Positions 4,206-19,794 of a stretch of DNA of 58,236 nucleotides are shown here, in pieces. Numbering within the stretch: the first letter of the stretch is position 1; every line of letters begins with the position of its first letter. Location of the stretch: contig JARLUB010000006.1 of NCBI GenBank assembly GCA_030920305.1, positions 1 through 58,236 on the forward strand. The letters run 5' to 3'. The notes under the pieces were generated by a model. That model had not been told where the DNA came from. It saw nothing but the letters and a program-made list of their open reading frames with translations, and did no database searches. This stretch comes from Eubacteriales bacterium SKADARSKE-1 (GTDB lineage Bacteria > Bacillota > Clostridia > Oscillospirales > Acutalibacteraceae). The position numbers and the translations under genes were made by a program.

Positions 4206-4303
4206 TTTTATTTCCCCTAAATTTCTAAATTGATCATTTAAATTATCTCATTTACACATCATAAAGTCAATAAATCGAAAATAACCATTAGCTAATTTAT
4301 TTT

Positions 4304-4344
4304 AAAAAAATAGAGCCTATACTTAAAATAAGTTTTAGGCTCTA
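4304..4344 (-). terminator. Intrinsic terminator of the twelve-gene glycosylation operon
   Basis: Read on the minus strand, TAGAGCCTAAAACTT and its complement AAGTATAGGCTCTA form a long hairpin (4311-4344) followed by a run of seven T (4304-4310). It starts 19 bases after the stop codon of the last operon gene. Confidence 0.85.
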
Positions 4345-4362
4345 CAAAATTAGATTATTTCA

Positions 4363-5292
4363 TTAAAAATTTAAACGTTTTTCTTCAACCACAAGCGGCC
4401 TTTTCATTATCCTGGTATTAATATTCATAATATATTCACCCAAAAGTCCTATGAAGAAAAGCTGCACCGAACCAAATAAGAATACACCAATTAGAATTGG
4501 AGCTGTTCCTGCTGAAAAGTTATCCCAAAATAGCAACTTTAAAATTAAGTATATAAATGCCACCAAAAGGCTCAATACAGAAAAGATTGACCCTGCAATT
4601 GTTGCTACTCTTAAGCCAACTTTTGTATATGAAGTAAAGCTGAGCATTGCAGCATCATAAAGGCTATACCAATTATTGCTGGTTTTGCCTGCTCTTCTTT
4701 TTTCTTGATCATAGTAAACATCTTTTCGTTTAGGCCCGAGTTCTGCTACAATTCCTCTCAAAAATGGTGTAGGATCATCCAATGACCGCAGTGTTTCAAT
4801 AAAATTTCTATCATAAAGGCCAAAGCCAGTAAAATGTTCTATCTGTTCAACGTCGCTCATTTTTTTAATAGCTCTATAATAACAGGATCTTAAAAAATAC
4901 ATAATTTTATTTTCTTTGCTAGATTTTTTTATTCCGCAAACAATCTTATATCCATTTTCCCATTCTTCTATAAATTTAGGAATCATATCGACTGGATCTT
5001 GGAAATCCGCGCACATTGAAATTGCACAGTCTCCTGTAGTTTGAAGTAATCCATAATAAGGCGAATTAAACTGACCAAAATTTTTAGCGTTGAATATAGC
5101 CTTTATTTTTTTATTGTTTTCACAAAGCTTTTCTAATTTTTCTTGAGTTTTATCGTTTGAACAATTGTCAATAAATAAAATCTCATAGTCATATTTCTCT
5201 AACTTTTCAAATTGTTCTATTACAGCAGCACTAAGTGGTTCTACATTTTCTTCTTCGTTGTAGCAGGGCACTAATATACTAATTTTTTTCAC
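4363..5292 (-). CDS. GtrB/DPM1-type polyprenyl-phosphate glycosyltransferase
   Basis: A 309-residue family 2 glycosyltransferase. The N-terminal GT-A domain has ISILVPCYNEEEN, the nucleotide-binding region FIDNCSNDKTQ, and the catalytic acidic motif CADFQDPVDMI near residue 95-105. Two transmembrane segments follow (about residues 225-250 and 260-285), ending in the typical LGEYIMNINTRIMKRP tail. This is the GtrB/ArnC/DPM1 layout, which loads a sugar from a nucleotide donor onto undecaprenyl phosphate at the inner membrane face. It uses a GTG start with an AAGGGG ribosome site and overlaps the HAD gene by 14 bases. As last gene of the operon with a GtrA and a polytopic transferase, it is likely the step that places the operon's sugar on the lipid carrier (inference). 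Confidence 0.88.
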   Translation of the reverse strand: MKKISILVPCYNEEENVEPLSAAVIEQFEKLEKYDYEILFIDNCSNDKTQEKLEKLCENNKKIKAIFNAKNFGQFNSPYYGLLQTTGDCAISMCADFQDPVDMIPKFIEEWENGYKIVCGIKKSSKENKIMYFLRSCYYRAIKKMSDVEQIEHFTGFGLYDRNFIETLRSLDDPTPFLRGIVAELGPKRKDVYYDQEKRRAGKTSNNWYSLYDAAMLSFTSYTKVGLRVATIAGSIFSVLSLLVAFIYLILKLLFWDNFSAGTAPILIGVFLFGSVQLFFIGLLGEYIMNINTRIMKRPLVVEEKRLNF

Positions 5293-5956
5293 ATTTTACA
5301 CCCCTTGGCTTTATAAATGAAAGTATATCACTCGGAGATTTGGCAACAAAAGATACTCGTTCGTCTCTAGATAAAGATTTTTTTCCTTGGCCCCATGTAA
5401 CAAAAACGCAATCAACCAAGGCGTTTCTTGCTGTTTCAATATCTGTTAATCCGTCTCCTATGTATACAGTTTCTTCTTTTGAAACATTATGTAATTTAAG
5501 TAATTCATTCACTCCATATGGATCTGGTTTTGAAGGTCTATCATCAGTAAATCCAACCACATTGTCAAATTTTACATCCGAAAATTTTTCACTGCACAAG
5601 TCATCAACCAGCGTCTGCGCTTTATTTGTATTGATCGCAACATGATAACCTTTTCGCTTTAACTTTTTAAGAACATCTTTAATTCCGTCAAATGGTACTG
5701 TATTTGGTTTCTTATCATTTAAATACAGCTCCCGGTATTTATTTTTTAATTTTTCTATATTTTCTGGATTTCTATCATCTTTTTTTAATAAATTTGAAAA
5801 TATAGTGTCTAGATTTCCTCCAACTGCTTTAGAATAATAATCAATCGGGTAAGTCTCAAACCCGTAAAATGAAAGCGCTTTATTAAAGCAAATACCTACA
5901 TCCTTTATCGTGTCTACCAGGGTCCCATCAAAATCAAATATAAACAACTTCTTCAT
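5279..5956 (-). CDS. HAD-family phosphatase (phosphoglycolate phosphatase-like)
   Basis: A HAD hydrolase of about 225 residues with all four motifs: FDFDGTLVDT (nucleophile Asp at the N-terminus), INTNK (motif II), the Lys in SKPDPYG (motif III) and YIGDGLTDIETA (motif IV). The alpha-helical cap fits the phosphoglycolate phosphatase/beta-phosphoglucomutase group. The ATG at 5956 is preferred because GGAGG sits seven bases upstream; a TTG six bases further out is possible. Its 5-prime end overlaps the sugar-phosphate cyclase gene. In this setting it may remove phosphate from a sugar or cyclitol intermediate. The substrate cannot be read from the sequence. Confidence 0.88.
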   Translation of the reverse strand: MKKLFIFDFDGTLVDTIKDVGICFNKALSFYGFETYPIDYYSKAVGGNLDTIFSNLLKKDDRNPENIEKLKNKYRELYLNDKKPNTVPFDGIKDVLKKLKRKGYHVAINTNKAQTLVDDLCSEKFSDVKFDNVVGFTDDRPSKPDPYGVNELLKLHNVSKEETVYIGDGLTDIETARNALVDCVFVTWGQGKKSLSRDERVSFVAKSPSDILSFIKPRGVKCEKN

Positions 5957-7016
5957 TTTCAACCTCCGCTATGCTTAAAATATAAGTTATAGCCTTTTTT
6001 ATCTCCTGCTCAGAAATATCTTTACAAATAGTAAGCCTAAAATCATCATTTAAAAGAAGGGCCGTGATATTTTCGCTAGTTTGTTTTTTGTCTTTTCGAA
6101 TAGCAGAAATTATTGTTTCAATTTTGAACCAGTCTTTGCTTAATTTAAATGGTATAATTTTTTTTACTAAATTTAAAATATTTTCTTGATTATAAATATT
6201 TAGCATTCCTCTAGCGTTTGAAATACTATTTGCAGCCAAAACTCCTAAAGCCACCGCTGTTCCATGTGGAATTATATAATTGCTTGAAACCTCAAAGGCA
6301 TGTCCAAAAGTGTGAGCAAAATTTAAAAGCACCCGTTCACCAAGATCAAATTCCTCCTCTTCTATAAAAGTCTTTTTAAAACTTAAAGACCTTTCAACAA
6401 AGCTCTCAAGCACCTGTTTGTCTCTTTTTAGCAATAGATCCATGTTTTGCTTTAATAATTTTACTCCATCTTCACCCATCATTATACTAAATTTTACAAC
6501 TTCACCCAAGCCACTTTTATAATCTTTTTCAGTTAAAGTGTCAAAGAAATCAGGGCAAATATAAATTCTATCTGGTGGATAAAAAGTTCCAAGCAAATTT
6601 TTAAAATGTTTATAGTTAAGGGAAGTTTTGCCGCCTATGCAACTGTCACATGCTGCCAGCAATGTAGTAGGAATAAATATCCATCCTATGCCTCTATACA
6701 TAATGCTTGTCACAAATCCTGTAAGGTCCTGTGTTATTCCCCCACCGCAAGAAACTAAAACTGTATTTCTTTTTGTATCAAGTTTTGTTAGCTGATCACA
6801 AATTTTTAAAGCCATTTCAATAGTCTTATTTTCTTCAATTGCGTCCAATAAAAAAAGTCTGCTATCTGGCACATTAACAAACAAAGAGCCAAACAAATTA
6901 TAAACATTTTGATCTATTACAAAAAAAGCATTTTCCTTATTTGTTAGGTCATTAAAAAAATCAAATGACTTTTTTATTTCCAGACTATAACCTTTTATTT
7001 TGGATTTTATAATCAT
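5934..7016 (-). CDS. Sugar-phosphate cyclase, 3-dehydroquinate synthase fold
   Basis: A 360-residue member of the dehydroquinate synthase-like cyclase family, which converts seven-carbon sugar phosphates into carbocycles using NAD and a metal. Seen: GGGITQDLTGF (residues 91-101), PTTLLAACDSCIGGKT (116-131), KNLLGTFYPP (139-148), GEVVKF with metal ligand E172, LLNFAHTFGHAFE with H235 and H239, and HGTAVALG with H251. Catalytic positions equivalent to DHQS D146, K152, K197, R264 and N268 appear kept, but GGGITQD replaces the usual GGGVxGD, which argues against ordinary shikimate-pathway DHQS. No other aromatic-pathway gene is nearby. ATGA overlap with the preceding SDR gene and overlap with the HAD gene show tight coupling. 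Product unknown. Confidence 0.85.
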   Translation of the reverse strand: MIIKSKIKGYSLEIKKSFDFFNDLTNKENAFFVIDQNVYNLFGSLFVNVPDSRLFLLDAIEENKTIEMALKICDQLTKLDTKRNTVLVSCGGGITQDLTGFVTSIMYRGIGWIFIPTTLLAACDSCIGGKTSLNYKHFKNLLGTFYPPDRIYICPDFFDTLTEKDYKSGLGEVVKFSIMMGEDGVKLLKQNMDLLLKRDKQVLESFVERSLSFKKTFIEEEEFDLGERVLLNFAHTFGHAFEVSSNYIIPHGTAVALGVLAANSISNARGMLNIYNQENILNLVKKIIPFKLSKDWFKIETIISAIRKDKKQTSENITALLLNDDFRLTICKDISEQEIKKAITYILSIAEVENEEVVYI

Positions 7017-7678
7017 TTAACAGTAAACCCTCCATCGGCGCAAATTTTTTGCCCTGTAATATATGTGTTCTCCTCGGAACCTAAAAAATATATTACATTA
7101 GCTATTTCTTCAGGTTTTGCCATTCTTTTCATTGGTATTTCTCTTGATATTTCTTTGATTTGCTCTTCTGAATTATTCTTTTTTGTTAGTTCAGTTAAAG
7201 TAAATCCCGGGCAAACAGTATTTACAAGTATATTGTAAGGTGCCAGTTCTAAAGCTAGCGTATTTGTTATTCCATGCATAGCATTTTTTGTAGCAGAATA
7301 AATAGATCTTCCTTCTTTTGAAACAACTGCCCAAATAGATGCGATATTTATTATTCTTCCATAATTTCTCTTTTTCATACTCGAAATTAATCCACGCAAC
7401 AATTTTATTGGCGATATCATATTTATTTCTAGCATATTTAAAAACTCTTCATCACTAACATTTTCTAATAAATTTATATCATTTATCCCTGCGTTATTTA
7501 CTATTGTATCAAAACTAAAATCTTTATACCTATTTAAAAAAGCAGAAACCGAAAAAGCTGAACTTAAATCCAGCTCAGCTCTTGTCGGCGCAAATACATT
7601 ATAACCCGATAATAAAAACTTTTCGGCAGTAGCTTTTCCTATTCCTCTGCTAGCACCCGTTATCAATACCGTTCTCAT
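7013..7678 (-). CDS. Short-chain dehydrogenase/reductase
   Basis: A 221-residue classical SDR. The Rossmann motif is TGASRGIGKAT, the structural motif is NNAGI, the catalytic Ser lies in IINIASIWAV, and the catalytic Tyr/Lys pair is YSATKNAMHG. The C-terminal EEIANVIYFLGSEENTYITGQ and DGGFTV follow the FabG pattern. It is likely NADP(H)-dependent and would reduce a ketone or oxidise a hydroxyl on the operon's sugar or cyclitol intermediate (inference). Its start codon overlaps the aldolase stop (TAATG) and its stop overlaps the cyclase start (ATGA), so translation of the three genes is probably coupled. Confidence 0.9.
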   Translation of the reverse strand: MRTVLITGASRGIGKATAEKFLLSGYNVFAPTRAELDLSSAFSVSAFLNRYKDFSFDTIVNNAGINDINLLENVSDEEFLNMLEINMISPIKLLRGLISSMKKRNYGRIINIASIWAVVSKEGRSIYSATKNAMHGITNTLALELAPYNILVNTVCPGFTLTELTKKNNSEEQIKEISREIPMKRMAKPEEIANVIYFLGSEENTYITGQKICADGGFTVK

Positions 7679-8466
7679 TACATTTGTTCCTTTGCTACAA
7701 TTAATCTCTTTGCAAGCATTTCCATCCTAGCTCTATCTTCGTTTGCCATTCTGTCATAAAATTCACATTTATTCTGTAAATATAATACTTCAAATTCCAT
7801 GGCTTTCAATATGCCCGCTCTCAAACGATTTTCATTATCATCGTATTTAAAAACAACTTTTCGGGTTTCAAATTTATCTACAAGGCCTTTCATCTCTTTT
7901 ATAAACGGTATTGCATCGAATGAAATTCCCCCGCCAAAACCTACAATAAGGCCATTATTCTTAGCTCTTGTTGCAAAATCTTTTGCTGCATCAAAAACTT
8001 CATTACCATTTATAATTTCACGGCTAAGGCCCATAGATGCCGACAAATCTACTCTTCCAATAGAAATAGTATTTAAAACGCCTTTACCCTCATTTAAAAT
8101 CTCATCAAAGTTTTCACGGCAAGTTTTCGTCTCAGCATTAATTATCCATTCAATATCATTTATATCTTCGCCATAAACTTTTTTAGCAGCACCAACGAAT
8201 TTTTTCATTGCAAAAGGTGTTTCAATCATTGGAGCCATTATACCACTGGCACCTAAAAGCCTACATTGATCTAAGTCACGAACAGCCTCACAACCACCAA
8301 TTTTAATAAATAACTCCATATCAGCGCGAAATACAATTTCATTTAGTTTAACAAGCTCATCAGTCCTAGAACCTTCAGCCTCAAATTCTGCTTTAATTGC
8401 TAAAACATTATGCTCGTTTTTAAGCTCTTTTAAAATATCAAGCATTTTTCTCTCTATTTTGTTCAT
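7678..8466 (-). CDS. HpcH/HpaI-family aldolase
   Basis: A 262-residue protein of the class II HpcH/HpaI aldolase/citrate lyase family, a TIM barrel that uses a divalent metal and commonly pyruvate as nucleophile. Seen: GIMAPMIETPFAMKKF with the metal-binding Glu, a second acidic ligand in ISIGRVDLSASMG, and VGFGGGISFDAIPF near the C-terminal barrel strands. An extra helical tail (CEFYDRMANEDRARMEML) follows. The ribosome site is AAGGAG before ATG 8466. Placed between a ThDP enzyme and an SDR, it is a second carbon-carbon bond-forming enzyme in the operon. Whether it builds or cleaves, and on which acceptor, cannot be told from sequence. Confidence 0.85.
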   Translation of the reverse strand: MNKIERKMLDILKELKNEHNVLAIKAEFEAEGSRTDELVKLNEIVFRADMELFIKIGGCEAVRDLDQCRLLGASGIMAPMIETPFAMKKFVGAAKKVYGEDINDIEWIINAETKTCRENFDEILNEGKGVLNTISIGRVDLSASMGLSREIINGNEVFDAAKDFATRAKNNGLIVGFGGGISFDAIPFIKEMKGLVDKFETRKVVFKYDDNENRLRAGILKAMEFEVLYLQNKCEFYDRMANEDRARMEMLAKRLIVAKEQM

Positions 8467-8481
8467 ATAAATTTCTCCTTT

Positions 8482-10302
8482 TTATATATGTAAATTTTTA
8501 TTTTGCGCATATTCGCTTCGGTTTAAAAATGGGAACATATCATCAATTGGCGGGGATATCATTGTGCCATCTGGCAAAGCCCTAGATGAAAGTTTTGGTT
8601 CAAAGTTTTGAGTAGTATCTAAAATAACCTCACACGTTACAGGACCTTTCGTATTTAAAACTTTCTCTATTTTAGATTTTGCCATATCTATATTATCAAT
8701 TTTAAAGTAAGGCACGCCATAACAGTTTGCAATTTTTTCACAATCAGGAAAGCTAACTCCGTTTTCTTTAGAAACCCCCACAAGTGGATGCTGTGAAAAC
8801 AGGTTAGTTTGAGTTTGCCTAATGGAATGGTAACCGCTGTTATTAAAGTAAAAAATCTTAATGTTTAAATTATTATGAACCAGAGTTTGCATTTCTTGAA
8901 GGTTCATTTGAAAACTGCCATCACCATCAAGGCAAATAACCCGACCTCCATTTTTAAAAACAGCTGTACCAATTGCTGCCGGAAAGCCATACCCCATGCT
9001 AGCACAACCAGAATTTGTGAAAAGTCTTTGTCCTTTTTTTAACCTTGCCACCTGAAAAGCTACAACACAAGCACTGCCATTACCACAAACAATTGTTTCG
9101 TCTTCTGGTAAAGTTTCAAAAAGAGTGTCAACAAATGCATATGGATTAACCGGTGTTTTTGTTTCGTAATATTTTGGCAAACAAGTTGGATATTTAGCAT
9201 TTATTTTTCGGCACCAATCAAGCCATGTTTTATGCTCATTGTTCTCATTCACAAAACCTGAAGCAAATAATTTTTCTATAACATCTTTTGCATCTGCATA
9301 AATTGGCAAGTCTATTGATAATGTTGGTTTCTGCAATTCTGCTTTATCAATGTCAACCATAATTTTGTATGCATTTTTTGCAAAGTTTTTATAATTATAG
9401 CTCACTTGGCGAATGCTGAGCCGACACCCTAAAGAGATTAACAAATCGCTATTTTCTACAACAAAATTTCCACCACGAGTCCCCATTATCCCTGGCCTGC
9501 CACAAAAAAGTCTATGTTCATCAAAAAGTATATCATGGCCGTTCCAAGGCGTTACAACCGGAATATTAAGCTTATCTATCAACTTTAAAAAGTCATCATA
9601 TGAATGCCCCAGTCTAATTCCAGTTCCTGCAATTAAAACAGGGCGTTTCGAACTTTTAATTTTATCTATAATTTTATCTATTGTCTCTTTTTCAACTGCT
9701 GGGGGCAGCTCATCTTGACATTCAGACTTATCAAAATGAATAAGCTCTTCGGTTTCAACAATTGCACCTTGTACGTCAAGCGGAATATCAAGCCATACCG
9801 GCCCGCCTCGTCCAGATTTTGATATAAATAATGCTTTTTCTAAATGATAGGCAATTTGCTCTGGTTCAGTAACCATTTTAGCGTATTTAGTCATTGGCTT
9901 TACAGAATCAATTATGTTATATTCCTGATCACCAAGCTGACGAAGTGGCAAATCTGTTGACCAAACTGTAGTTTCTCTTTTTACCTGACCCGACACAATA
10001 AACATAGGAATAGAATCAAGCCAACCGCCAAGCACACCAGTGAGTGCATTTGTTCCACCCGGGCCTGTTGTTACACAAACAGCTGCTAATTCTCCAGAAT
10101 ACCTAGTATAGCTTTCTGCCGCTATAGCGCAAGCTTGTTCATGATGGTCATAAATGCACTTAAGGTCTTTATGGTGACCCAAAGAATCATTTAAATGCAT
10201 AGCCCCGCCACCGGTTACGGTGAACACATGTTTTATTCCATTGTTTGCTAAAAAATCCGCAACATAATCTGAAACTTTAATTTTCAAAACCATTTCCCTC
10301 AT
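8482..10302 (-). CDS. ThDP-dependent enzyme of the acetolactate synthase family
   Basis: A 606-residue three-domain ThDP enzyme. The catalytic Glu is E55 in DHHEQACAIAA. The cofactor-binding motif GDGSFQMNLQEMQTL with the downstream Asn pair in YFNNSGYHS lies near residue 450-490. The central domain keeps the GPGGTNALTGVLGGWLDSIP and RGGPVWLDIPLDVQ segments of the IlvB family. No ilvN regulatory subunit or other branched-chain gene is near, so it is unlikely to be anabolic acetolactate synthase. Beside rfbF/G/H it recalls YerE of the yersiniose pathway, which transfers a two-carbon unit from pyruvate to CDP-4-keto-3,6-dideoxyglucose. The start overlaps the epimerase by 26 bases; ATG 10293 or TTG 10287 are alternatives. 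Confidence 0.87.
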   Translation of the reverse strand: MREMVLKIKVSDYVADFLANNGIKHVFTVTGGGAMHLNDSLGHHKDLKCIYDHHEQACAIAAESYTRYSGELAAVCVTTGPGGTNALTGVLGGWLDSIPMFIVSGQVKRETTVWSTDLPLRQLGDQEYNIIDSVKPMTKYAKMVTEPEQIAYHLEKALFISKSGRGGPVWLDIPLDVQGAIVETEELIHFDKSECQDELPPAVEKETIDKIIDKIKSSKRPVLIAGTGIRLGHSYDDFLKLIDKLNIPVVTPWNGHDILFDEHRLFCGRPGIMGTRGGNFVVENSDLLISLGCRLSIRQVSYNYKNFAKNAYKIMVDIDKAELQKPTLSIDLPIYADAKDVIEKLFASGFVNENNEHKTWLDWCRKINAKYPTCLPKYYETKTPVNPYAFVDTLFETLPEDETIVCGNGSACVVAFQVARLKKGQRLFTNSGCASMGYGFPAAIGTAVFKNGGRVICLDGDGSFQMNLQEMQTLVHNNLNIKIFYFNNSGYHSIRQTQTNLFSQHPLVGVSKENGVSFPDCEKIANCYGVPYFKIDNIDMAKSKIEKVLNTKGPVTCEVILDTTQNFEPKLSSRALPDGTMISPPIDDMFPFLNRSEYAQNKNLHI

Positions 10303-11206
10303 TCTGTAACTCTAAAATTTTTCTTATCCCAGCCTCAAATGAATACTCCGGAACAAATCCAGTATCATTTTTAAGTTTTGTTATATCTGCTGATAAAAAC
10401 ATAACCTGATTTTCGCCATATGGTTTTTGGCCAAAACTTAATTTTAAACTAGGGTTTATAATCTTTGCTATATCATTTATATATTCTTTTAAAAGCTTGT
10501 TTTCTCCACTTGCAATGTTATATGTCTCACCATTTTTGCCTTTTTCTGAAAGCTTTATCAGAGCATTAGCAGCATCAAAATTAAAAAGATAATCCCAAAC
10601 TTGTTCTCCTTTTGTTAAAGCTGGCTGCTTATTATTTTTAATTTCATTTATAACATAAGATACAAGGGTTCTCTCATCGTCGTTTGGTCCGTAAACACTA
10701 AATATTCTAGTCCATATATGTCTTATCCCTAAATCATTTGCAAGAACTCTGCTTAAATTTCCGGCTGACAATTTTGCTGCACCATATAAGGAAAAAGGCT
10801 TTGTTAAAGTATTTTCATCTGCAGCTTTTGTAAAGTGGCCATACTCAGCTTGAGACCCAGCCCCAATAAAAGTTTTACAGCCAAGCCCACTTGCTAGTTC
10901 AACTGCATCCATAGTATATTTTATATTATCAAGTTGCAAGCTGGAAGCATTTCGGCTTTCGCCAAACGTTCCTCCCCAAGCCAAGTGGTAAAACACATCA
11001 AAACCTAAATCCAGTTTATCCTTTAATGTTAACAATTTTGATATATCGCATTCAATTACATGCAAGTTGTGATTTGGTTTTAAATTAGAAATATTAGGTG
11101 AATTCGGCCGACAAATAGCAAAAACTTCATAATTTCTTTGTATAAGCAGCTCTGCTAAAGCAGTTCCAACCGCACCTGTTGGTCCTGTAATAATTGCTTT
11201 CTTCAT
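10277..11206 (-). CDS. NAD-dependent epimerase/dehydratase (extended SDR)
   Basis: A 309-residue extended SDR. The N-terminus has the Rossmann motif ITGPTGAVGTALAEL, and the catalytic pair is in SLYGAAKLSAGNL (Tyr and Lys) near residue 143. A substrate domain follows (RIFSVYGPNDDERT; EQVWDYLFNFDAANALI). The family includes sugar-nucleotide 4-epimerases and 4-ketoreductases. In this operon it could reduce the branch or ring ketone of the CDP-sugar, as the YerF reductase does in yersiniose synthesis (inference). It starts with ATG after GAGGT, ten bases after the polytopic transferase gene, and overlaps the ThDP gene by 26 bases. Confidence 0.88.
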   Translation of the reverse strand: MKKAIITGPTGAVGTALAELLIQRNYEVFAICRPNSPNISNLKPNHNLHVIECDISKLLTLKDKLDLGFDVFYHLAWGGTFGESRNASSLQLDNIKYTMDAVELASGLGCKTFIGAGSQAEYGHFTKAADENTLTKPFSLYGAAKLSAGNLSRVLANDLGIRHIWTRIFSVYGPNDDERTLVSYVINEIKNNKQPALTKGEQVWDYLFNFDAANALIKLSEKGKNGETYNIASGENKLLKEYINDIAKIINPSLKLSFGQKPYGENQVMFLSADITKLKNDTGFVPEYSFEAGIRKILELQNEGNGFEN

Positions 11207-11215
11207 ATCAGTACC

Positions 11216-13276
11216 TCAATAAATCTTTATAGGATTTCTATTCTTATCTACATAAGTTCTTCCATCCTTAATTGCCCATATATAAATTTTTTCAGAGTTT
11301 TCTATTTCTCCCGAATATAACAAAAAATATTCCTGGCTTTCTATTAATTCTTTATATGTGTCCTGTATATCTCTCTGACCAGAACGTTGTCCATCTCTAA
11401 AAAAATCTTCATGGAAGTTCCACTCATTTTCACTTAAATTTTGCCACACTATAAAAGTAGGCATTGCATTTTTTAATGCCTGCGCATCTTGTTTTGCTAC
11501 ACTATCACAGCAAACATCAAAATAATGTACTTTAGAAAAAGTTTCTGGACATCTAAGATTCGACATAACATTAAAATAATTAATATGTGGGAATGTATAC
11601 ATAGTATCCCCATCTAACTTATTGTTTTCAATCAAATGATATATATTATTTAATTCTCTTACAGCCCGTTCGCTCCCATAAATTCCTTTTAAATGAGGGT
11701 CATCATAGTATTCATGCACACTATAAATATTTGCCGTCCAATTAACACCCCACCAACAATATGTAAAATTACATCGCTGTACAAAGACTTCTAACACCAT
11801 AAGCAAACAAACCAAACAAACTGCACCATTTTTTATAGTGTTTAATATGGTTTTGCTTGATAACAACAAGCAAATTGATGCAGACATAGAAAGTAGCATT
11901 GCGTGATCCTCTAAGCTGCTAGACATATTATGTATACACATAATAACTACAGAAGAAAGAATTATAATAAATAATACCTTGTTAGTTTCTTTATTTTTCA
12001 ATATTTGAAAAAGGTAAACAAAAGATAATAACAAGGTTATAAAAAATATTGACAAATTTAATATTGATCTATCTGCACGCAACCTTCCCCAATCAACTGT
12101 ATTCATATCATGCCTTGTTATATAAACATACGTGATACACATTGCAAGTAAAAAAATTAAGTATAACCCTATCTCAATTATTCTTCTTTTTATTTTAAAC
12201 CCCATAATTTTATCAGGCAATTGATCAAAAAAGCATATTCCAAAAAGTGAAAAAATAGCAAAAATTAAAATAATATCTAACTTGGTAAAATTAATCAATC
12301 CGAAAAAACTATCAATTTTTGGGACAAGTATAATTTTTATAGTGAATAAAAGAAGCAAAATATACACAATACTTATTTTTAAATTGTCGGTTGGTCTATC
12401 GTTAGATTTTTTATATAATTTAGCTACTACATATAAAGACAGAAAGCAAAAAAGAAAAATTGCAACATTTTTATTATTTAGTCTGGGTATAACACGAAAA
12501 ATAATTTGTACAAAATTCCCCTTTGATGTAGCTCCTTTAAACAATTGAAAAACAAATGGTTTTAAAGCTCCATTTAAAACTAAAGGCATTAAAATCAAAA
12601 TAATACTCAAGATATACGATATCAAAGAAACATATATAGATTTTAAACTTTTCTTAATATCATCTTTGTAAGAAATTATAAAAAAGGCAAAAATAAGCGC
12701 AGCAAAAAGGATTACACCCGTCGTATGTTTTGTCATCGTTGTAATTCCTGAAATAATTCCAAACATAATTGGCCAAATCATGGCTTTTTTATTGATATCA
12801 CAAGAAATTATTTCATACATTTTTATCGCAAAAAATATCATAAGCATTGCTAATAGTAAAGATGTCTGATAGTACCCATAAAATAAATCTTGAATATTTG
12901 AAATATATACAGCACTAGCGGCAAGTAAAGAAATAAAAACTATGCGGCTGTCAAAAACTTTTCTAAGTATTGAAAAAGTCAAAATAATTAGGCCAAGTCT
13001 TTCTATAACTCCATATATTCTAAACACAATAAATAAATTTTTTGAAATTAAACTTAACAAGGTCATAAGTGAAGGAAATACTGGTGGAATAAATAAGTAA
13101 AAATCTCTATAAGGCACTTTTCCATCTAATATATAATTTGAATAGTCCTGGAACCAACCCTCAGTAATAGGGAAAAATTTATTAAATAAAAATAGATTAA
13201 AAACAGCATATGTTATAATCAATGTTCCTAAACAGACAATATCATTTACTGACCACTTTCTAGTACATTTGAACAA
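11216..13276 (-). CDS. Polytopic membrane glycosyltransferase, GT-C type (GtrC-like)
   Basis: A 686-residue integral membrane protein with about a dozen hydrophobic segments between residues 18 and 490, then a soluble C-terminal domain of about 190 residues (roughly 500-686). The first extracytoplasmic loop, TEGWFQDYSNYILDG followed by PYRDFYLFIPP, carries acidic residues as in the catalytic loop of GT-C enzymes that use polyprenyl-phosphate sugars (PMT/ArnT group). With GtrA and the GtrB-like transferase in the same operon, its likely role is to move the lipid-linked sugar to a surface polymer outside the membrane (inference). Start is TTG after a GAGGAG region; a further start inside is possible. 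Confidence 0.75.
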   Translation of the reverse strand: MFKCTRKWSVNDIVCLGTLIITYAVFNLFLFNKFFPITEGWFQDYSNYILDGKVPYRDFYLFIPPVFPSLMTLLSLISKNLFIVFRIYGVIERLGLIILTFSILRKVFDSRIVFISLLAASAVYISNIQDLFYGYYQTSLLLAMLMIFFAIKMYEIISCDINKKAMIWPIMFGIISGITTMTKHTTGVILFAALIFAFFIISYKDDIKKSLKSIYVSLISYILSIILILMPLVLNGALKPFVFQLFKGATSKGNFVQIIFRVIPRLNNKNVAIFLFCFLSLYVVAKLYKKSNDRPTDNLKISIVYILLLLFTIKIILVPKIDSFFGLINFTKLDIILIFAIFSLFGICFFDQLPDKIMGFKIKRRIIEIGLYLIFLLAMCITYVYITRHDMNTVDWGRLRADRSILNLSIFFITLLLSFVYLFQILKNKETNKVLFIIILSSVVIMCIHNMSSSLEDHAMLLSMSASICLLLSSKTILNTIKNGAVCLVCLLMVLEVFVQRCNFTYCWWGVNWTANIYSVHEYYDDPHLKGIYGSERAVRELNNIYHLIENNKLDGDTMYTFPHINYFNVMSNLRCPETFSKVHYFDVCCDSVAKQDAQALKNAMPTFIVWQNLSENEWNFHEDFFRDGQRSGQRDIQDTYKELIESQEYFLLYSGEIENSEKIYIWAIKDGRTYVDKNRNPIKIY

Positions 13277-13306
13277 CCTTACTTCTCTCCTCTTTCATAT
13301 TTAAAC

Positions 13307-13693
13307 TTACTTAAACGCCCAAAATTTATTCATTAAAAAATTTAATGGCGTAGTGATTACTAAACTAATAAGAGGTGCTATTACCCCTGAAAGGCCCATA
13401 CAGTCTACCATGATAAACATAAGAAAAGTTGAAAGCAAGAAAGTACTACCATAAGCCAAAAACGTTCTTGCTAAAGCCCTTTTATTACCACTACTAGTTT
13501 TTTTAAACACATATTTGTTGTTCCAATAATACGCATTTAAAACACTAACAACAAAACCCGCTGCATTTGCAATTAAATAATTTACACCTAGGAAGTAAAG
13601 CCCATAATAAATACCAAGTGAAATTAGTGTATTTGAAATCCCAATTATTGAAAACTTTATCAGCTGTTTTGCCGTTTCCCAAAAATGCTCCAC
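13307..13693 (-). CDS. GtrA-family membrane protein (lipid-linked sugar flippase)
   Basis: A 128-residue protein with four transmembrane segments and the GtrA signature: FSIIGISNTLISLGIYY at the N-terminus, then GFVVSVLNAYYWNNKYVFK, and the closing TTPLNFLMNKFWAFK. GtrA proteins are thought to flip polyprenyl-phosphate-linked monosaccharides across the membrane. A GTG start overlaps the rfbH stop by one base (TAGTG), so the two are translationally coupled. Placement between sugar synthesis and the polytopic transferase supports a role in export of the operon's sugar. Confidence 0.9.
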   Translation of the reverse strand: MEHFWETAKQLIKFSIIGISNTLISLGIYYGLYFLGVNYLIANAAGFVVSVLNAYYWNNKYVFKKTSSGNKRALARTFLAYGSTFLLSTFLMFIMVDCMGLSGVIAPLISLVITTPLNFLMNKFWAFK

Positions 13694-15030
13694 TATTTTA
13701 CCGCCTCAATAATTATTTTAGCCATATAATCTATCATTTCATCTGTCATACCAGGGTATACACCAACCCAAAATGTATTATTCATAATTCTATTAGTGTT
13801 GGCTAAATCTCCAACAATTCGATACCCTTTTCCTGTTTCTCTCATTTCATCAAAACAAGGGTGACAGGTAAGGTTTCCAGCAAAAAGCATTCTGGTTTGC
13901 ACACCATGAGATTCTACATAATTAACTACAGCTTTTCTGTCAATTCCATCTTTACAAGTAATTAAAAATCCAAACCAACTAGGCTTTGAGTTTTCATTTT
14001 CAACCGGTAAAATTAATTTATCAGAAACCACTTGCAAGGCTTTTTTTAGCCTATTAAAATTGTGTATTCTACGTTCTACAAATGAAGGGAACTTTTCAAG
14101 CTGAGCACATCCAATAGCAGCTTGCATATCGGTTGCTTTTAAATTATATCCAAAATGCGAATAAACATATTTGTGATCATAACCTAGCGGCAGCTGACCA
14201 TATTGCTTGTCAAATCTGTGCCTGCACAAATTGTCCTTTCCCGATGGGCAACTACAGTCGCGTCCCCAATCACGCAAAGATTTTACGATTTTTGCTAAAA
14301 TTGGATTACTAGTATAAACAGCTCCACCTTCACCCATAGTCATGTGGTGTGGAGGATAAAAGCTAGATGTACCAATGTCTCCAATTGTTCCGGTAAACTT
14401 TTCTTCACCGTTTATAATATATTTTGAACCTAAAGCGTCACAATTATCTTCAACAAGCCATAGATTATTTTTATCACAAAATTCTTTCACGCTTTTTAAA
14501 TCAAAGGGATTTCCCAAAGTATGCGCTATCATAACAGCTTTTGTTTTATCTGTCAAAGCTTTTTCCAATTGCGTCACATCAATATTATATTGCGGAATCG
14601 TAACATCCACAAAAATAGGAACAGCGCCATATTGAATAATTGGCGTTACAGTTGTTGGAAAGCCTGCGGCAACTGTAATCACTTCATCACCCGGTTTTAT
14701 TGCTCTCTCCTTTAAAAGAGGGGACGTCAACGCCATAAATGCAATTAAATTCGCCGATGAGCCTGAATTTACAAGTGCACAAAATTTTGTTCCCAAATAG
14801 TTTGACAAATCTTTCTCAAACTTATCAGTATATCTTCCTGAAGTTAACCAAAATTCCAGTGAGCTATCAACTAAATTTATCATCTCATTTTTATCATAAA
14901 CCCTAGATGCATAAGGGATTCTCTGCCCCTGTTTAAATTCCTTATTTTTATTATGATAGTTTTCACAGTATAAACCAACCATATTTAAAATTTGTTTTCT
15001 GGCTTCTTGCTCAGTCATATTTTCAAACAT
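13693..15030 (-). CDS. rfbH: CDP-6-deoxy-4-keto-glucose 3-dehydrase (E1, RfbH/DdhC)
   Basis: A 445-residue PMP-dependent, iron-sulfur dehydratase that removes the C3 hydroxyl of CDP-4-keto-6-deoxyglucose. It has the aminotransferase fold, but the PLP-anchoring Lys is replaced by His in SSFYPPHHMTMGEGG (H228/H229), the hallmark of this enzyme. Cysteines C259, C261 and C269 (C-x-C-x7-C), with C197 upstream, fit the [2Fe-2S] ligand pattern of E1. Start ATG 15030 has AGGAG upstream. Together with rfbF and rfbG it commits the pathway to 3,6-dideoxyhexoses. A separate E3 reductase is usually needed and none is seen in this window. Confidence 0.95.
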   Translation of the reverse strand: MFENMTEQEARKQILNMVGLYCENYHNKNKEFKQGQRIPYASRVYDKNEMINLVDSSLEFWLTSGRYTDKFEKDLSNYLGTKFCALVNSGSSANLIAFMALTSPLLKERAIKPGDEVITVAAGFPTTVTPIIQYGAVPIFVDVTIPQYNIDVTQLEKALTDKTKAVMIAHTLGNPFDLKSVKEFCDKNNLWLVEDNCDALGSKYIINGEEKFTGTIGDIGTSSFYPPHHMTMGEGGAVYTSNPILAKIVKSLRDWGRDCSCPSGKDNLCRHRFDKQYGQLPLGYDHKYVYSHFGYNLKATDMQAAIGCAQLEKFPSFVERRIHNFNRLKKALQVVSDKLILPVENENSKPSWFGFLITCKDGIDRKAVVNYVESHGVQTRMLFAGNLTCHPCFDEMRETGKGYRIVGDLANTNRIMNNTFWVGVYPGMTDEMIDYMAKIIIEAVK

Positions 15031-15048
15031 AAAAACTTCTCCTGATAC

Positions 15049-16104
15049 TTAATTTAAAAATTCATCGATCTGCTTGTCCATAAGTTCTGGAATATTTCCA
15101 CCTTTTTCATAGCAACGCGCAAACTCAACAGTTTTTTCTATAGCAGTTTCAATATTCCATCTTGGCTTCCAGTTAAAAGCACTTTTTAGCTTTGAACAAT
15201 CAAGCTTTAAAAAGTTTGCTTCGTGAGGACCGCCAACTGACTTTTCTTCAAAAGCTTGTCCATCTCCCCATTTTTTGCAAAACAGCTTAACTAGCTCGCC
15301 TGTTGTAACACAATCACAATCATCTGGCCCTACATTATAATAGTCAGAAAAAGAAATATCCTCATACTGCTTTTTAGCTATCATTAAATATGCATAAAGT
15401 GGTTCTAAAACATGTTGATAAGGCCTTGTTGAATTTGGGTTTCTAACGATAATAGGTTCCTTTTTTAGGGCTGCTTTAATGCAATCTGGAATTATTCTGT
15501 CAACTGCAAAATCACCACCGCCAATAACGTTTCCTGCTCTAGCAGTTGATATTGCAATTTTATTATCATCAAAAAAAGAACTTTTATAACTATGCGTTAC
15601 AAGTTCAGAACATGATTTTGAATTAGAGTAAGGGTCAAATCCATCAAGCGGTTCATTTTCGCGGTAACCCCAAACCCATTCATTATTTTTATAAACCTTA
15701 TCAGTTGTAATATTTACAACTGATTTTGGTAATATTTTTGCTGTTCTAATGCATTCTAAAATGTTTACAGTCCCCATAACGTTGATTTCATAAGTATAGT
15801 GTGGATTAACATAACTATCCCTCACCAAAGGCTGAGCTGCTAAATGAAACACTATTTCTGGTTTTGCACTTTCAAAAGCAACTTTTAACGAAGATAAATC
15901 GCGGATGTCTCCAATAATTGAATTCATTTTTTCTTTTACATCTGCAATATCAAAAAGATTTGGATCAGTTGGCGGGTTTAAAGAATAGCCTGTAACAATT
16001 GCACCTGACTTTATTAGTATTTTACAGAGCCAAGAGCCTTTAAATCCTGTATGGCCAGTAACAAAAACCTTCTTATTTTTATAAAAATCTAAAACATTTG
16101 CCAT
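15049..16104 (-). CDS. rfbG: CDP-glucose 4,6-dehydratase
   Basis: An extended SDR of about 351 residues that converts CDP-glucose to CDP-4-keto-6-deoxyglucose. Seen: VFVTGHTGFKGSWL (Rossmann motif), HLAAQPLVRDSY, NITTDKVYKN, and the catalytic Tyr/Lys in PYSNSKSCSELV. The fingerprint GHTGFKGSWL with AQPLVR is typical of RfbG/DdhB. The reading stays open well upstream over the 3-prime end of rfbF, but homologues begin near MANVLDFYKNKK. ATG 16104 (with GGTGA five bases before) or ATG 16110 (overlapping the rfbF TGA) is therefore the real start. Confidence 0.93.
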   Translation of the reverse strand: MANVLDFYKNKKVFVTGHTGFKGSWLCKILIKSGAIVTGYSLNPPTDPNLFDIADVKEKMNSIIGDIRDLSSLKVAFESAKPEIVFHLAAQPLVRDSYVNPHYTYEINVMGTVNILECIRTAKILPKSVVNITTDKVYKNNEWVWGYRENEPLDGFDPYSNSKSCSELVTHSYKSSFFDDNKIAISTARAGNVIGGGDFAVDRIIPDCIKAALKKEPIIVRNPNSTRPYQHVLEPLYAYLMIAKKQYEDISFSDYYNVGPDDCDCVTTGELVKLFCKKWGDGQAFEEKSVGGPHEANFLKLDCSKLKSAFNWKPRWNIETAIEKTVEFARCYEKGGNIPELMDKQIDEFLN

Positions 16105-16109
16105 AATCA

Positions 16110-16883
16110 TCACCATATCTTCCATGGTGCATTTCCAGATGCCCACATTTCTTCTAATTGATGTTTGTCTCTTTGGGTATCCATACACTGCCAAAATCCA
16201 GTATGATGATAAGCTTTAAGTTCTCCTCTTTTTGCAGCTATCTCAAGTGGTTCTTGTTCAAAAACAGTCTCGTCGCCTTCTATATAATCAAATATTTCAG
16301 GATTTAGAACCATAAATCCACCATTTATAACGCTTCCATCATCTTGCCTTTTTTCCCTAAAGGAATTTATCATGCCATCGTCATCTATATCAAGCACACC
16401 AAAGCGCTGCCCAACATTAACTGCTGTCATGGTTGCTATTTTTCCATGAGACTTATGAAATTCTACTAACTTGTCTATATCAACATTAGAAACGCCATCA
16501 CCATAAGTCAGCAAAAACGGCTCATTTTCAACATATTTTTGGACTCTTTTTATTCTTCCTCCTGTCATGGTGTTAAGGCCTGTATCAACAAGCGTTACAC
16601 GCCAAGGCTCTGCAAAATTGCTATGTAAAGTCATGTTGTTATTATTGGAAAAATCAAACGTGACATCACTTGAATGCAAATAGTAATTTGCAAAATATTC
16701 TTTAATCATGTGGGCCTTATACCCACAGCAAATTATAAAATCATTATATCCAAACGCTGAATATATTTTCATTATATGCCATAAAATTGGCTTACCACCA
16801 ATTTCTATCATTGGCTTTGGCCTTAAATGGCTTTCTTCAGAAATCCTTGTTCCAAAGCCCCCTGCAAGCAGCACAACCTTCAC
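16110..16883 (-). CDS. rfbF: Glucose-1-phosphate cytidylyltransferase
   Basis: A 257-residue nucleotidyltransferase making CDP-glucose from CTP and glucose-1-phosphate. The N-terminus VVLLAGGFGTRISEES with RPKPMIEIGGKPILWH gives the GxGTR and PKP signatures. CGYKAHMIKEYF and TYGDGVSNVD carry further substrate residues, and the end QCMDTQRDKHQLEEMW is characteristic of RfbF/DdhA. It is the first gene of the twelve-gene operon. GTG start 16883 lies eight bases after AAGGAGG. A consensus promoter sits directly upstream. Confidence 0.95.
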   Translation of the reverse strand: MKVVLLAGGFGTRISEESHLRPKPMIEIGGKPILWHIMKIYSAFGYNDFIICCGYKAHMIKEYFANYYLHSSDVTFDFSNNNNMTLHSNFAEPWRVTLVDTGLNTMTGGRIKRVQKYVENEPFLLTYGDGVSNVDIDKLVEFHKSHGKIATMTAVNVGQRFGVLDIDDDGMINSFREKRQDDGSVINGGFMVLNPEIFDYIEGDETVFEQEPLEIAAKRGELKAYHHTGFWQCMDTQRDKHQLEEMWASGNAPWKIW

Positions 16884-16913
16884 AAAATTTCCTCCTTAAA
16901 GTATATCGACTCT

Positions 16914-16942
16914 ATTATGAAGCTTCTTTTTAAATTTGTCAA
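16914..16942 (-). promoter_or_regulatory. Sigma-A promoter of the glycosylation operon
   Basis: On the minus strand TTGACA (16942-16937) is followed by a 17-base spacer and CATAAT (16919-16914), about 30 bases before the rfbF start. No other convincing promoter was seen inside the operon, whose genes overlap or lie within about 30 bases of each other. Confidence 0.75.
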
Positions 16943-17008
16943 ACTTTTAATCCAAAATGCCTAAAAGCTTTATATGTGACAAAATACTTTTTAACTTTAC
17001 TAAAATAG

Positions 17009-18310
17009 CTATTGTTTATATGTTGAAGCCGGCAAAGCTTCTCTGTAAACTTCCATGCCTTTTTTATAAAAAACCCTTTGTGCAAAAACCTTATTCGATG
17101 AACCTGCAGCATACCCCGAAACAACCTCTATTTTATCATACCAGCGCGGTAATGTTCCATAAAATCTACAAATCACATTATAACCATTTAAATATGTACA
17201 AATATATACATTACCATTGAGCAGATTTTTAAACTTTAAATCAGCTGAATTATAACTAACCGTTGCATCCTGTCCTATTGGCACATATTTAGACTTGAGC
17301 GAGTGGTTATATCTCTCCATTATTGTCATATTAGCCCTTATTGCCGCACCATAAACAGTACTTGCAACTTGACAAACCCCTCCTCCGTATGCTGTTACTG
17401 AAACTCCATTTGAAAGTGCAGGTGCTAACACAAACCCCCTAGATGGTAGATTTGTATTTCCGACTATTTTATTAAAAGAAAATGTTTCGCCAGGGGTTAA
17501 AACAGTTCCGTTTATAAATGAAAGTGCCATTTTTATATTATTATTCCTAGAGTAATTATTTGAAACAGTTGTTATGAATTCACTAATTAATCCAATTTGC
17601 CTTTTTACATCCTCTATAGCCACTGTGTTTGTTACTTTTTGTCTTTTAATAAAAATATCGCTTTTTACTCCACTTTTCAAAGCACTTTCTATTTTATTTC
17701 TTAGTTCAAACCTATTAACTTCCAACCCATCCTTTCCGGCTTCATACGTAAACATAGGATCTTTCAATGGGTTGAAACAAGATACATGAGGCTCTTGAAC
17801 TTTATCATCAAAATTTAAAGAAATGTTATCAATAACTGTATCTATAGAATCCTTGGTTGGTACTGCTAAAACATTGAAAAAAATCGGATTATTTTTAATT
17901 AGCATAGCTGTGCTATATCTTAATAAAGGACTTCCTTCTCTTGTTATAAAGTAGATTAAATCGACAGTCTCATCAACATTATAATTATAATTAAAATCTT
18001 CTGCTGTAAGTAAAATAGTCTTATCTTCACAAATAACCTTTATATCAATATTAGGCCTTACCAAATTTAGCCTTTCACTTAAAATTAGCTTTGCCTGTTT
18101 TTTTGTTTTGCCACCCATATCAATCCCATTTATATATATTCCTGGATAAAAACCTTCTTCATTTAAAATAGAATAAATACATTCATAACAAAGATCTACT
18201 CCCTTTTTTAAAAAAATACCGACTGAAAATAAATATAATCCAACTAAAATAAATACAAATATTACTTTAGTGTACCGTATCTTCCTATCTCTAAAACGAT
18301 TCTTGTCCAT
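17009..18310 (-). CDS. VanW-family protein with YoaR-like peptidoglycan-binding domain
   Basis: A 433-residue membrane-anchored extracytoplasmic protein. One transmembrane segment near residues 15-33 follows a basic N-terminus. A YoaR-like domain (GIYINGIDMGGKTKKQAK onwards) precedes the VanW domain, recognised by NIKMALSFINGTVLTPGETFSFN and the Cys-containing AYGGGVCQVASTVYGAA near residue 310. VanW proteins occur in some vancomycin-resistance clusters and widely in clostridial genomes; their biochemical role is not settled. No van ligase genes are near, so this is not a resistance cluster. It lies alone between the glycosylation operon and a divergent glycosyltransferase. Confidence 0.9.
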   Translation of the reverse strand: MDKNRFRDRKIRYTKVIFVFILVGLYLFSVGIFLKKGVDLCYECIYSILNEEGFYPGIYINGIDMGGKTKKQAKLILSERLNLVRPNIDIKVICEDKTILLTAEDFNYNYNVDETVDLIYFITREGSPLLRYSTAMLIKNNPIFFNVLAVPTKDSIDTVIDNISLNFDDKVQEPHVSCFNPLKDPMFTYEAGKDGLEVNRFELRNKIESALKSGVKSDIFIKRQKVTNTVAIEDVKRQIGLISEFITTVSNNYSRNNNIKMALSFINGTVLTPGETFSFNKIVGNTNLPSRGFVLAPALSNGVSVTAYGGGVCQVASTVYGAAIRANMTIMERYNHSLKSKYVPIGQDATVSYNSADLKFKNLLNGNVYICTYLNGYNVICRFYGTLPRWYDKIEVVSGYAAGSSNKVFAQRVFYKKGMEVYREALPASTYKQ

Positions 18311-18531
18311 AAAAAATTATACCTCCTATTGCCATTTTATATTTTCAATTAAAAAATAATTGAAATGTTGAACAGCAGGTAGTATGATGTATATTAGAAT
18401 AATTTTAGCTTTAACTAAAAACACTAAATTATATCTTATGTTATTTTAAATGAATTTAGTTTTGCATGATTTTTATAACATTATTAAAAGCAAAACTATT
18501 TGTTTTACTAGAGTTTAAAAGGAGAAGTTTA

Positions 18532-19794
18532 ATGAAAATATTAATTTTATCTGCTTCAACAGGCGGAGGTCATATGACTGCTGCCGAAGCTTTAAAATCA
18601 TATATATTAACAATGAAAAAAGACTCTGTAGTTGAAGTTGTTGATACTTTAGAGTATATTAACCCACTGCTAAATAAAACAGTGACTGAATCCTATTTGT
18701 ACATGGCCAAAAAAAATCCTAAAATGTTTGGGCTTTTATACAATACTTCAAATAAAGAAAATAAATTTAGCAATATGGTAACTTTTTTAAACAGTTTATT
18801 CAGCAAAAGGTTGTTTTTATTACTCAAAGATTTTAATGCAGATATAATCATTACTACTCATATGTTTCCAACCGAGATGGTATCTAATTTAAAAGACTCT
18901 GGTAAAGTAAACATTCCACTTGTGTGTGTGATGACAGACTATGCGCCCCATAAAACATGGATAAACAAATGCGTTGATGCTTATATAGTTGCAAATGAAG
19001 ATATGGTTCCCACAATGGTTAAAATGGGTGCTCCAATAGAAAAAATACACCCGTTTGGTATCCCCATTAATCACTCCTTTTATAATAAAACTGATAAAAA
19101 TAAAATGCTTTTAGGCCTTGGCCTAGATCCTAACATTCCAACAATTTTAATTATGGCAGGTAGTTTTGGTGTCACCAACATACTTAAAATATATGACAAT
19201 ATAGTAAATATAGATGTGAATTTTCAAATTATTATAATTACAGGTAAAAATGAAAAATTATATAACATGTTTAAAAGACGAGTAGACGTTGGTCAAAAAA
19301 AACACTCGACTAAACATGTCCGCATTGAAACCATTGATTTATTAAGGGAAAGTATAAAACATCATTCCGAAAAGTTGACGCATTTACTCAAGGACAAAAA
19401 GAAAATACCTGGTTCTAAAAAAACCCGACTAATATTTTTTACAGACGAAGTGTATAAATATATGCACATATCTGATTTAATAATAACAAAGCCCGGAGGG
19501 CTAACTGTATCTGAAGCCTTAGCTTGTGATTTACCAATGGCTATATTTAATGCTATACCTGGCCAAGAAGAAGAAAATGCTGAATTTTTAGTAAAAAATA
19601 ATATGGCAATAAAAATAGGTAAGGGTAACCACTGCAGCAATGCCATAAAAAATCTTTTAACTAACAAAGAAAGCCTTGATTCTATGAAAAACTCATGTAA
19701 GTCATTTGACAAATCACAGTCAAATGAAAATATTTTTATACTGCTAACTGAATTAGTTGACCTGTCTAATAGTTGCGAAAAAGTTTCTAAATAG
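18532..19794 (+). CDS. Diacylglycerol glycosyltransferase (UgtP/MGDG synthase type)
   Basis: A GT28-family enzyme of 420 residues. The N-terminus MKILILSASTGGGHMTAAEAL is the MGDG-synthase/UgtP N-terminal signature. TTHMFPTEMVSNL and MTDYAPHKTWINKCVDAYIV lie in the acceptor half, and the donor half has TKPGGLTVSEALACDLPM with GQEEENAEFLV. The family transfers glucose or galactose from a UDP-sugar to diacylglycerol at the inner membrane face, making glycolipids and lipoteichoic-acid anchors. Start ATG 18532 is chosen because AAAAGGAGAAG precedes it. Upstream in-frame codons would add about 22 hydrophobic residues that homologues lack. Confidence 0.88.
   Translation: MKILILSASTGGGHMTAAEALKSYILTMKKDSVVEVVDTLEYINPLLNKTVTESYLYMAKKNPKMFGLLYNTSNKENKFSNMVTFLNSLFSKRLFLLLKDFNADIIITTHMFPTEMVSNLKDSGKVNIPLVCVMTDYAPHKTWINKCVDAYIVANEDMVPTMVKMGAPIEKIHPFGIPINHSFYNKTDKNKMLLGLGLDPNIPTILIMAGSFGVTNILKIYDNIVNIDVNFQIIIITGKNEKLYNMFKRRVDVGQKKHSTKHVRIETIDLLRESIKHHSEKLTHLLKDKKKIPGSKKTRLIFFTDEVYKYMHISDLIITKPGGLTVSEALACDLPMAIFNAIPGQEEENAEFLVKNNMAIKIGKGNHCSNAIKNLLTNKESLDSMKNSCKSFDKSQSNENIFILLTELVDLSNSCEKVSK

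Follow-up and report, generated by a model that had tools for sequence, protein, structure and literature searches.

The 58,236-nucleotide stretch of the Eubacteriales bacterium SKADARSKE-1 genome analysed here (contig JARLUB010000006.1, positions 1 to 58,236; referred to as the window) contains, at positions 4363-16883, an operon of twelve intact genes that fill this interval and are co-directional on the minus strand. The reading that we cautiously favour, from gene families and their comparison, is that it serves both to make and to deliver a single surface sugar, whose long branch at C-4 would be closed to a carbocycle by a pair of enzymes, a classical short-chain dehydrogenase/reductase (SDR) and a sugar-phosphate cyclase. 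The branching half is of an already known kind; the ring-closing module is the less understood part. The gene names were tested against curated models (NCBIfam, Pfam), with the following outcome (CDP, cytidine diphosphate; ThDP, thiamine diphosphate):

16110-16883, minus strand: RfbF, glucose-1-phosphate cytidylyltransferase (TIGR02623, 422.5 bits; cut-off 300)
15049-16110, minus strand: RfbG, CDP-glucose 4,6-dehydratase (TIGR02622, 444 bits; cut-off 278)
13693-15030, minus strand: RfbH, CDP-4-keto-6-deoxyglucose 3-dehydrase (NF011936, 714 bits; cut-off 423)
13307-13693, minus strand: candidate GtrA-type flippase (PF04138, 93.2 bits; cut-off 26.1; sole match in the genome)
11216-13276, minus strand: 686-residue polytopic GT-C-like transferase candidate, in the role of GtrC (PF13231 PMT_2, 26.1 bits; cut-off 26.1)
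10277-11206, minus strand: extended SDR (PF01370 epimerase family, 127.9 bits; best PDB match 2pk3, 78.6 bits)
8482-10302, minus strand: YerE-like ThDP enzyme with three TPP_enzyme domains (JanthE structure 8rph, 432 bits)
7678-8466, minus strand: HpcH/HpaI-family aldolase (PF03328, 43.7 bits; cut-off 25)
7013-7678, minus strand: classical SDR paired with the cyclase (in five other genomes an SDR 55-63% identical to it immediately adjoins the cyclase)
5934-7016, minus strand: TIGR04425 sugar-phosphate cyclase (425.2 bits; cut-off 400)
5279-5962, minus strand: HAD phosphatase (PF13419 HAD_2, 135.1 bits)
4363-5292, minus strand: candidate GtrB/ArnC/PgfS-like polyprenyl-phosphate glycosyltransferase (PF00535, GT2, 89.3 bits)

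The initial annotation, made from the sequence alone, had described twelve minus-strand genes, most of them overlapping, and this stands: neighbouring genes overlap by at least one base at seven of the eleven junctions and are separated by gaps of 9-30 nucleotides at the other four. Its gene names are borne out by curated models for RfbF, RfbG, RfbH, GtrA, the ThDP enzyme, the HpcH/HpaI aldolase, the SDR, the cyclase and the HAD phosphatase, whereas the polytopic transferase is borderline at the PMT_2 cut-off and the GtrB-like protein falls under the cut-offs for PgfS and ArnC. The 381-residue frame of RfbG probably starts too early, its likely start being the ATG at 16110, which overlaps the RfbF stop.

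The observed gene content, families, linkage and motifs suggest the following reactions, order and delivery steps. RfbF, RfbG and RfbH would supply CDP-4-keto-3,6-dideoxyglucose, and the HpcH/HpaI-type aldolase would join pyruvate to an aldehyde, possibly phosphorylated, to give a 4-hydroxy-2-oxo acid, which the YerE-like ThDP enzyme would decarboxylate before coupling the product to the C-4 ketone. Like erwiniose and caryophyllose, the resulting sugar would carry a long polyhydroxylated branch at C-4. The extended SDR, whose best PDB match is a GDP-6-deoxy-D-lyxo-4-hexulose reductase (2pk3), is predicted to reduce the new side-chain ketone, and the HAD phosphatase would take off phosphate. 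The SDR-cyclase pair would convert the phosphorylated branch into a carbocycle with phosphate as the leaving group; cyclisation could precede or follow coupling, and placing it after is a guess. Finally, the GtrB-like protein would load the sugar onto undecaprenyl phosphate, GtrA would flip it and the GT-C-like protein would transfer it outside the cell.

The proposed branching follows, by analogy, the known logic of yersiniose, erwiniose and caryophyllose. According to the available part of a 2025 review, YerE adds activated acetaldehyde derived from pyruvate to CDP-3,6-dideoxy-4-keto-glucose, and ErwE attaches a hydroxylated 2-oxo acid to CDP-4-keto-3,6-dideoxyglucose, as shown in vitro with a cyclic analogue of this ketone; pyruvate is not a donor for ErwE, which prefers 4-hydroxy-2-oxo acids such as 4-hydroxy-2-oxobutanoate (PMC12247030). 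The same part gives MMAR_2332 a donor preference similar to that of ErwE, its ketone acceptance being not yet shown, and has YpYerE and JanthE taking pyruvate (PMC12247030). Since 4-hydroxy-2-oxo acids are products of pyruvate aldolases, the preference of such YerE-like enzymes would give a role to the neighbouring aldolase. In the window ThDP enzyme, Glu55 and the GDG of the ThDP motif (460-462) are invariant in all eight aligned proteins. Glu55 is presumably the catalytic glutamate. E112 and D140 of the aldolase, aligned with an HpaI-like protein, are likewise invariant in 10/10 and are taken here to be metal ligands.

Linkage ties the two enzymes together. In all eight loci where both were found, the genes for the aldolase and the ThDP enzyme are adjacent (aldolases at least 43% identical: the window, L002, L003, L004, L047, L048, L049 and L074). 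Elsewhere its place is taken by other proteins: an HMGL-like protein that scores best against 4-hydroxy-2-oxovalerate aldolase models, under their cut-offs, in L065 and L070, an HMGL-like protein (by Pfam) in L037, and an HpaI-like protein, under its cut-off, in L069. That the aldolase can be exchanged for members of other families with similar chemistry is the best indication that the pathway requires an aldol product.

Searches with the aldolase gave three loci in a species-level genome collection, two matches among 99 near relatives (own genome included), and seven among 398 genomes of the phylum (own included), two of them weak (L043 and L044; E 4.1e-4 and 7.6e-4). RfbF, RfbG, RfbH, GtrA, the extended SDR, the ThDP enzyme, the aldolase, the HAD phosphatase and GtrB are all present in L002, L003, L047 and L048; their order is identical in the first three, and L048 has the extended SDR after the HAD gene (L002 and G046 are the same 19,082-base contig). 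L049 combines RfbFGH, the ThDP enzyme and the aldolase with a different extended SDR, a PF13344 HAD protein and a GT2 protein, so that RfbFGH, ThDP enzyme and HpcH occur together in six loci, the window included. Besides the window, the aldolase searches recovered six loci in which aldolase and ThDP enzyme both occur, and none of these has the cyclase. In the window, the SDR and cyclase sit between the aldolase and the HAD gene, and judged by this comparison they are an add-on to a conserved core. The comparison thus supports two earlier proposals, that one operon appears to make and deliver its sugar and that carbon units would be added to CDP-4-keto-3,6-dideoxyglucose; the suggested co-occurrence of all twelve families holds for the core lacking the classical SDR and cyclase, in four relatives, three of which share the gene order; in these four, neither the cyclase nor a relative of the polytopic protein was detected.

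In L004 the aldolase is accompanied by a ThDP protein of 36% identity, with no RfbFGH in 20.8 kb and with proteins of the transketolase N-terminal, LuxE and LuxC families nearby; the setting of this pair (L004:5139-9184) suggests a different branch chemistry. In L002, rfbF is split over two reading frames (3242-4011), owing either to a true frameshift or to faulty assembly. Two distant aldolase relatives (33-36% identical; L046:12001-12774 and L050:3178-3987) lie beside aconitase-family genes, which hints at an origin of the aldolase family in hydroxy-diacid metabolism.

The cyclase exceeds the curated cut-off of TIGR04425, described in NCBIfam as an AroB-related putative sugar phosphate phospholyase (cyclizing), a name that gives no substrate. 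Its score against the aroB model is 266.3 bits, below the cut-off of 305, and it is the sole AroB-like gene of the host genome. A search for chorismate synthase, the only shikimate step searched, gave no match in the host genome and was positive in 14 of 14 control genomes. An AroB function in aromatic amino acid synthesis was therefore rejected, since the aroB cut-off is missed and the genome has neither chorismate synthase nor a second AroB-like gene.

Among 398 genomes sampled from the phylum, two have a TIGR04425-like cyclase scoring above 300 bits (341 had some AroB-like match); at E ≤ 1e-92, such cyclases were found in 1 of 394 genomes of the order, 2 of 391 of the class and 10 of 189 of the family of G455; the samples are partial, overlapping and from one phylum, and weaker true members would be missed at these thresholds. 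Together they represent 12 different genomes, nine with scores over the curated cut-off of 400 and three at 328-337 bits. The 12 cyclases form one clade (support 0.988) apart from 25 AroB-like references, and share departures such as G96Q and S126C in 12/12; the references, presumed to be AroB, derive from 28 loci (L009-L036), three of which were dropped for lack of a usable frame under the motif filter. The idea of a possible carbocycle thus gains an enzyme of a named cyclase family that is not AroB, with its substrate not settled. Among viral contigs, nine pattern matches to the cyclase were found and none confirmed; phage and plasmid collections yielded 15 and 115 matching records respectively, all below 60% identity, and those annotated among the matches listed are aroB or 3-dehydroquinate synthase (DHQS).

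Neighbourhoods were fetched for all 12 cyclases (the window, L037 with L051 and L052, and L065-L074). A YerE-like ThDP gene lies in the fetched stretch of nine, and a pyruvate-type aldolase, of three types, in ten; none was found in L073 or in L071, where five proteins were scanned and the rest of the locus was checked by tblastn with two aldolase queries. Every one of the 12 loci has an SDR, of the window type beside the cyclase in five others and of another type in six, and at least one RfbF, RfbG or RfbH gene is present in seven, several stretches being short. L074 keeps the order ThDP-HpcH-SDR-cyclase, with identities of 57, 65, 55 and 50% respectively; L073 (3 kb) and L074 (12 kb) are each a complete contig of small size, and the lack of a gene in them carries little weight. 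A FGGY-type sugar kinase gene lies beside the cyclase in L037 (7770-9143) and L072 (8986-10311), with a partial match in L073; this kinase might supply the phosphate to be expelled by the cyclase.

In its most general form, the proposal is that a DHQS-like cyclase and an SDR close a six-membered carbocycle on a phosphorylated branch installed by the ThDP enzyme on a CDP sugar, giving a cyclitol-bearing pyranose, and that this would be a general route to carbocyclic surface sugars, reused across Clostridia with interchangeable aldolases. We put this forward tentatively, as a view more doubtful than otherwise.

The distribution of the HAD phosphatase bears on what the cyclase acts on. A HAD gene, of one of two Pfam families, is present in all six RfbFGH-ThDP-HpcH loci; it occurs in all five cyclase-free core loci (L002, L003, L047, L048 and L049) versus only 2 of the 12 cyclase loci (the window and L037). 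Such rarity beside the cyclase would follow if phosphate were expelled by the cyclase where there is one and removed by the HAD protein where there is none.

Several observations weigh against the favoured reading. The HAD survey of cyclase loci was a motif search that missed one of six known HAD proteins (that of L048), and the window itself, having HAD and cyclase together, fits the HAD-or-cyclase pattern poorly. No ThDP gene lies near the distant aldolase relatives of L045, L046 and L050 (33-42%) in the stretch seen. In three cyclase loci (L069, L070 and L071), the fetched stretch of 19-20 kb lacks a ThDP gene and contains KdsB- or PseF-like cytidylyltransferases, so that branching need not accompany the cyclase module. 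The PMT_2 score of the polytopic protein is just at the cut-off, and it has no NCBIfam match. Lastly, had the CDP-sugar adduct been the substrate, residues on the carboxylate side of the cyclase pocket were expected to be lost, and the reverse was found, which speaks against the proposed order of steps. The SDR-cyclase pairs of L069, L070 and L071 possibly represent a second use of the module, with sugar acids activated by cytidine monophosphate.

The pocket evidence comes from 11 residues of the pocket for 3-deoxy-D-arabino-heptulosonate 7-phosphate (DAHP), listed for Staphylococcus aureus DHQS in the accessible part of PMC6262012; their positions were placed by motif spacing, S. aureus DHQS itself being outside the alignment. 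The window cyclase keeps all 11, and 10 of the 11 positions are invariant across the 12 cyclases, the eleventh being His for Lys in L069 only. The pocket Arg and Lys presumably bind the carboxylate. Such an intact DAHP-type pocket would favour a free keto acid over a large CDP-sugar adduct, as would be expected if the sugar were branched and not carbocyclic, with the SDR and cyclase acting on the free aldolase product (a DAHP-like 3-deoxy-2-ulosonate phosphate) to give a quinate-like cyclic acid, either a separate decoration or a competing product. Retention of the pocket is not automatic, since two Streptomyces relatives (under both the aroB and TIGR04425 cut-offs) have Ala for the pocket Arg, and one of them Arg for the last Lys; the three loci lacking a ThDP gene also suit this explanation. 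On the other side, no gene of the operon is obviously suited to attach a cyclic acid and nine of the 12 cyclases are near a ThDP gene. A DHQS-like pocket may moreover not be decisive, because confirmed 2-epi-valiolone synthases would pass for DHQS without data, as stated in a figure legend of PMC5133447. A cyclic acid is an alternative that we consider rather unlikely, and the phosphorylated branch, suggested by linkage and the HAD pattern, appears slightly ahead of the free keto acid, suggested by the pocket, as the cyclase substrate.

Two further explanations concern the ThDP enzyme. It might use pyruvate to install a short, yersiniose-like C2 branch, leaving the aldolase, cyclase and HAD phosphatase to serve another compound, and its closest solved structure is indeed JanthE, one of the two enzymes reported to accept pyruvate. 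The constant adjacency of aldolase and ThDP genes, and the substitution of an aldolase of another family elsewhere, make this improbable. It could also be an ordinary acetolactate synthase in an operon for a plain CDP-3,6-dideoxyhexose of the paratose or abequose type, in which the extended SDR could serve as the C-4 reductase; the top NCBIfam model is acetolactate synthase. That match, at 355.6 bits, is far below the cut-off of 538, the JanthE structure outscores the next solved structure, an acetolactate synthase, by 432 to 239 bits, and the aldolase, HAD phosphatase, SDR and cyclase would be left unexplained, so that this explanation seems very improbable. The long C-4 branch with ring closure is the reading retained below.

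GtrA, a GT2 protein of the PgfS/ArnC kind and the polytopic protein would together fit a load-flip-transfer scheme. The GT2 protein scores 184.9 bits against PgfS and 119.6 against ArnC, both below the cut-offs, with no GtrB model among the 13 listed. GtrA and GtrB accompany five of the six RfbFGH-ThDP-aldolase loci. No relative of the 686-residue protein was detected in L002, L003, L047 or L048; in or beside the operon, a protein of the GT87 family is encoded in L048, and membrane proteins with no Pfam match in L002 and L047. Such variation between loci is as expected if the polytopic component chooses the acceptor. None of the 11 non-window cyclase loci has a relative of the window GtrA or GtrB at E ≤ 1e-10, and the sugar may therefore be used in more than one way.

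Two signals border the operon:

16914-16942, minus strand: promoter-like site TTGACA-17-CATAAT (11 of 12 matches), 30 nucleotides upstream of the rfbF start
4304-4345, minus strand: terminator-like hairpin followed by seven T, 3' of gtrB, missing from the terminator scan list

The hairpin has the arms TAGAGCCTA and TAGGCTCTA and a predicted 10-bp stem, the z-score of the 161 nucleotides being only -1.8. A promoter scan of the region gave 72 sites versus 62.5 expected (sd 9.0), not clearly above chance, and the promoter is therefore a match and not proof. The promoter match before rfbF and the hairpin with its T run after gtrB make a single transcript of the twelve genes likely, a softer statement than the earlier one of a run from one promoter to one terminator. 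No Rfam family reached its gathering score within 3900-19000.

The host genome is small, a 1.38-Mb draft that is 98.3% complete. It has two Spo0A_C matches, one at 155.7 bits, which makes the suggested spore former plausible. Immediately upstream, in the same orientation as the operon, 17009-18310 encodes a VanW-like protein that, at 57 bits versus a cut-off of 365, is no VanW by that model. A second surface-polysaccharide cluster on the minus strand (33585-42268) encodes Wzx-like and polymerase-like membrane proteins, several GT2 proteins and IspD/TarI-like and LicD-like proteins, names that come from sequence reading only, and is a candidate acceptor system for the glycosylation.

The proposal would predict that these bacteria carry a surface sugar of a new class, place TIGR04425, a family with no assigned substrate, in a testable setting and cast pyruvate aldolases as exchangeable suppliers of branch donors to YerE-like carboligases. 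The earlier statement that no described system has this gene set was too strong, as the branching half is of the YerE/ErwE/MMAR_2332 type described in the available part of PMC12247030 and the operon minus SDR and cyclase occurs in four relatives. What holds is that no description was found, in open PMC papers (subscription journals being outside the scope), of YerE-type branching paired with a TIGR04425 cyclase and SDR. PMC4275268 was rejected as a precedent, the searched names being only separate entries of a gene list.

Amongst known systems, yersiniose resembles the operon in combining CDP-3,6-dideoxy-4-ketoglucose with ThDP-dependent branching by YerE (PMC12247030, available part). It differs in its C2 branch, which is derived from pyruvate. 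To our knowledge, its pathway involves no aldolase, cyclase or HAD phosphatase. Erwiniose (ErwE, Pectobacterium atrosepticum) and caryophyllose (MMAR_2332, Mycobacterium marinum) rely on the same kind of YerE-like enzyme preferring 4-hydroxy-2-oxo acids, and for ErwE the acceptor is CDP-4-keto-3,6-dideoxyglucose, as proposed here (PMC12247030, same part); in caryophyllose, C-4 of a 3,6-dideoxyhexose carries a tetrahydroxyhexyl chain (PMC5706390, in part). These sugars, compared by description and not by gene clusters, differ in belonging to the lipopolysaccharide or lipooligosaccharide of other phyla, with no cyclase mentioned in the parts available, and the word "aldolase" is not in the main text of two mycobacterial papers. 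Gtr systems (GtrA, GtrB and GtrC) share a GtrA-family protein with the operon, together with candidates for the polyprenyl-phosphate GT2 and the polytopic transferase whose roles here are assigned on weak scores, and they differ in that the sugar would here be made in the same operon. Bradyrhizose, a bicyclic, inositol-fused monosaccharide from the surface polysaccharide of photosynthetic Bradyrhizobium, is likened to the predicted product by its described structure and proposed 11-gene cluster size, rather than by gene list (PMC4743980, available part). The genes for known carbocyclic surface sugars such as this one are loosely defined, the available part of PMC4743980 giving no functions for the other genes of the bradyrhizose cluster, and the operon would offer a directly testable enzyme set that could build such a sugar.

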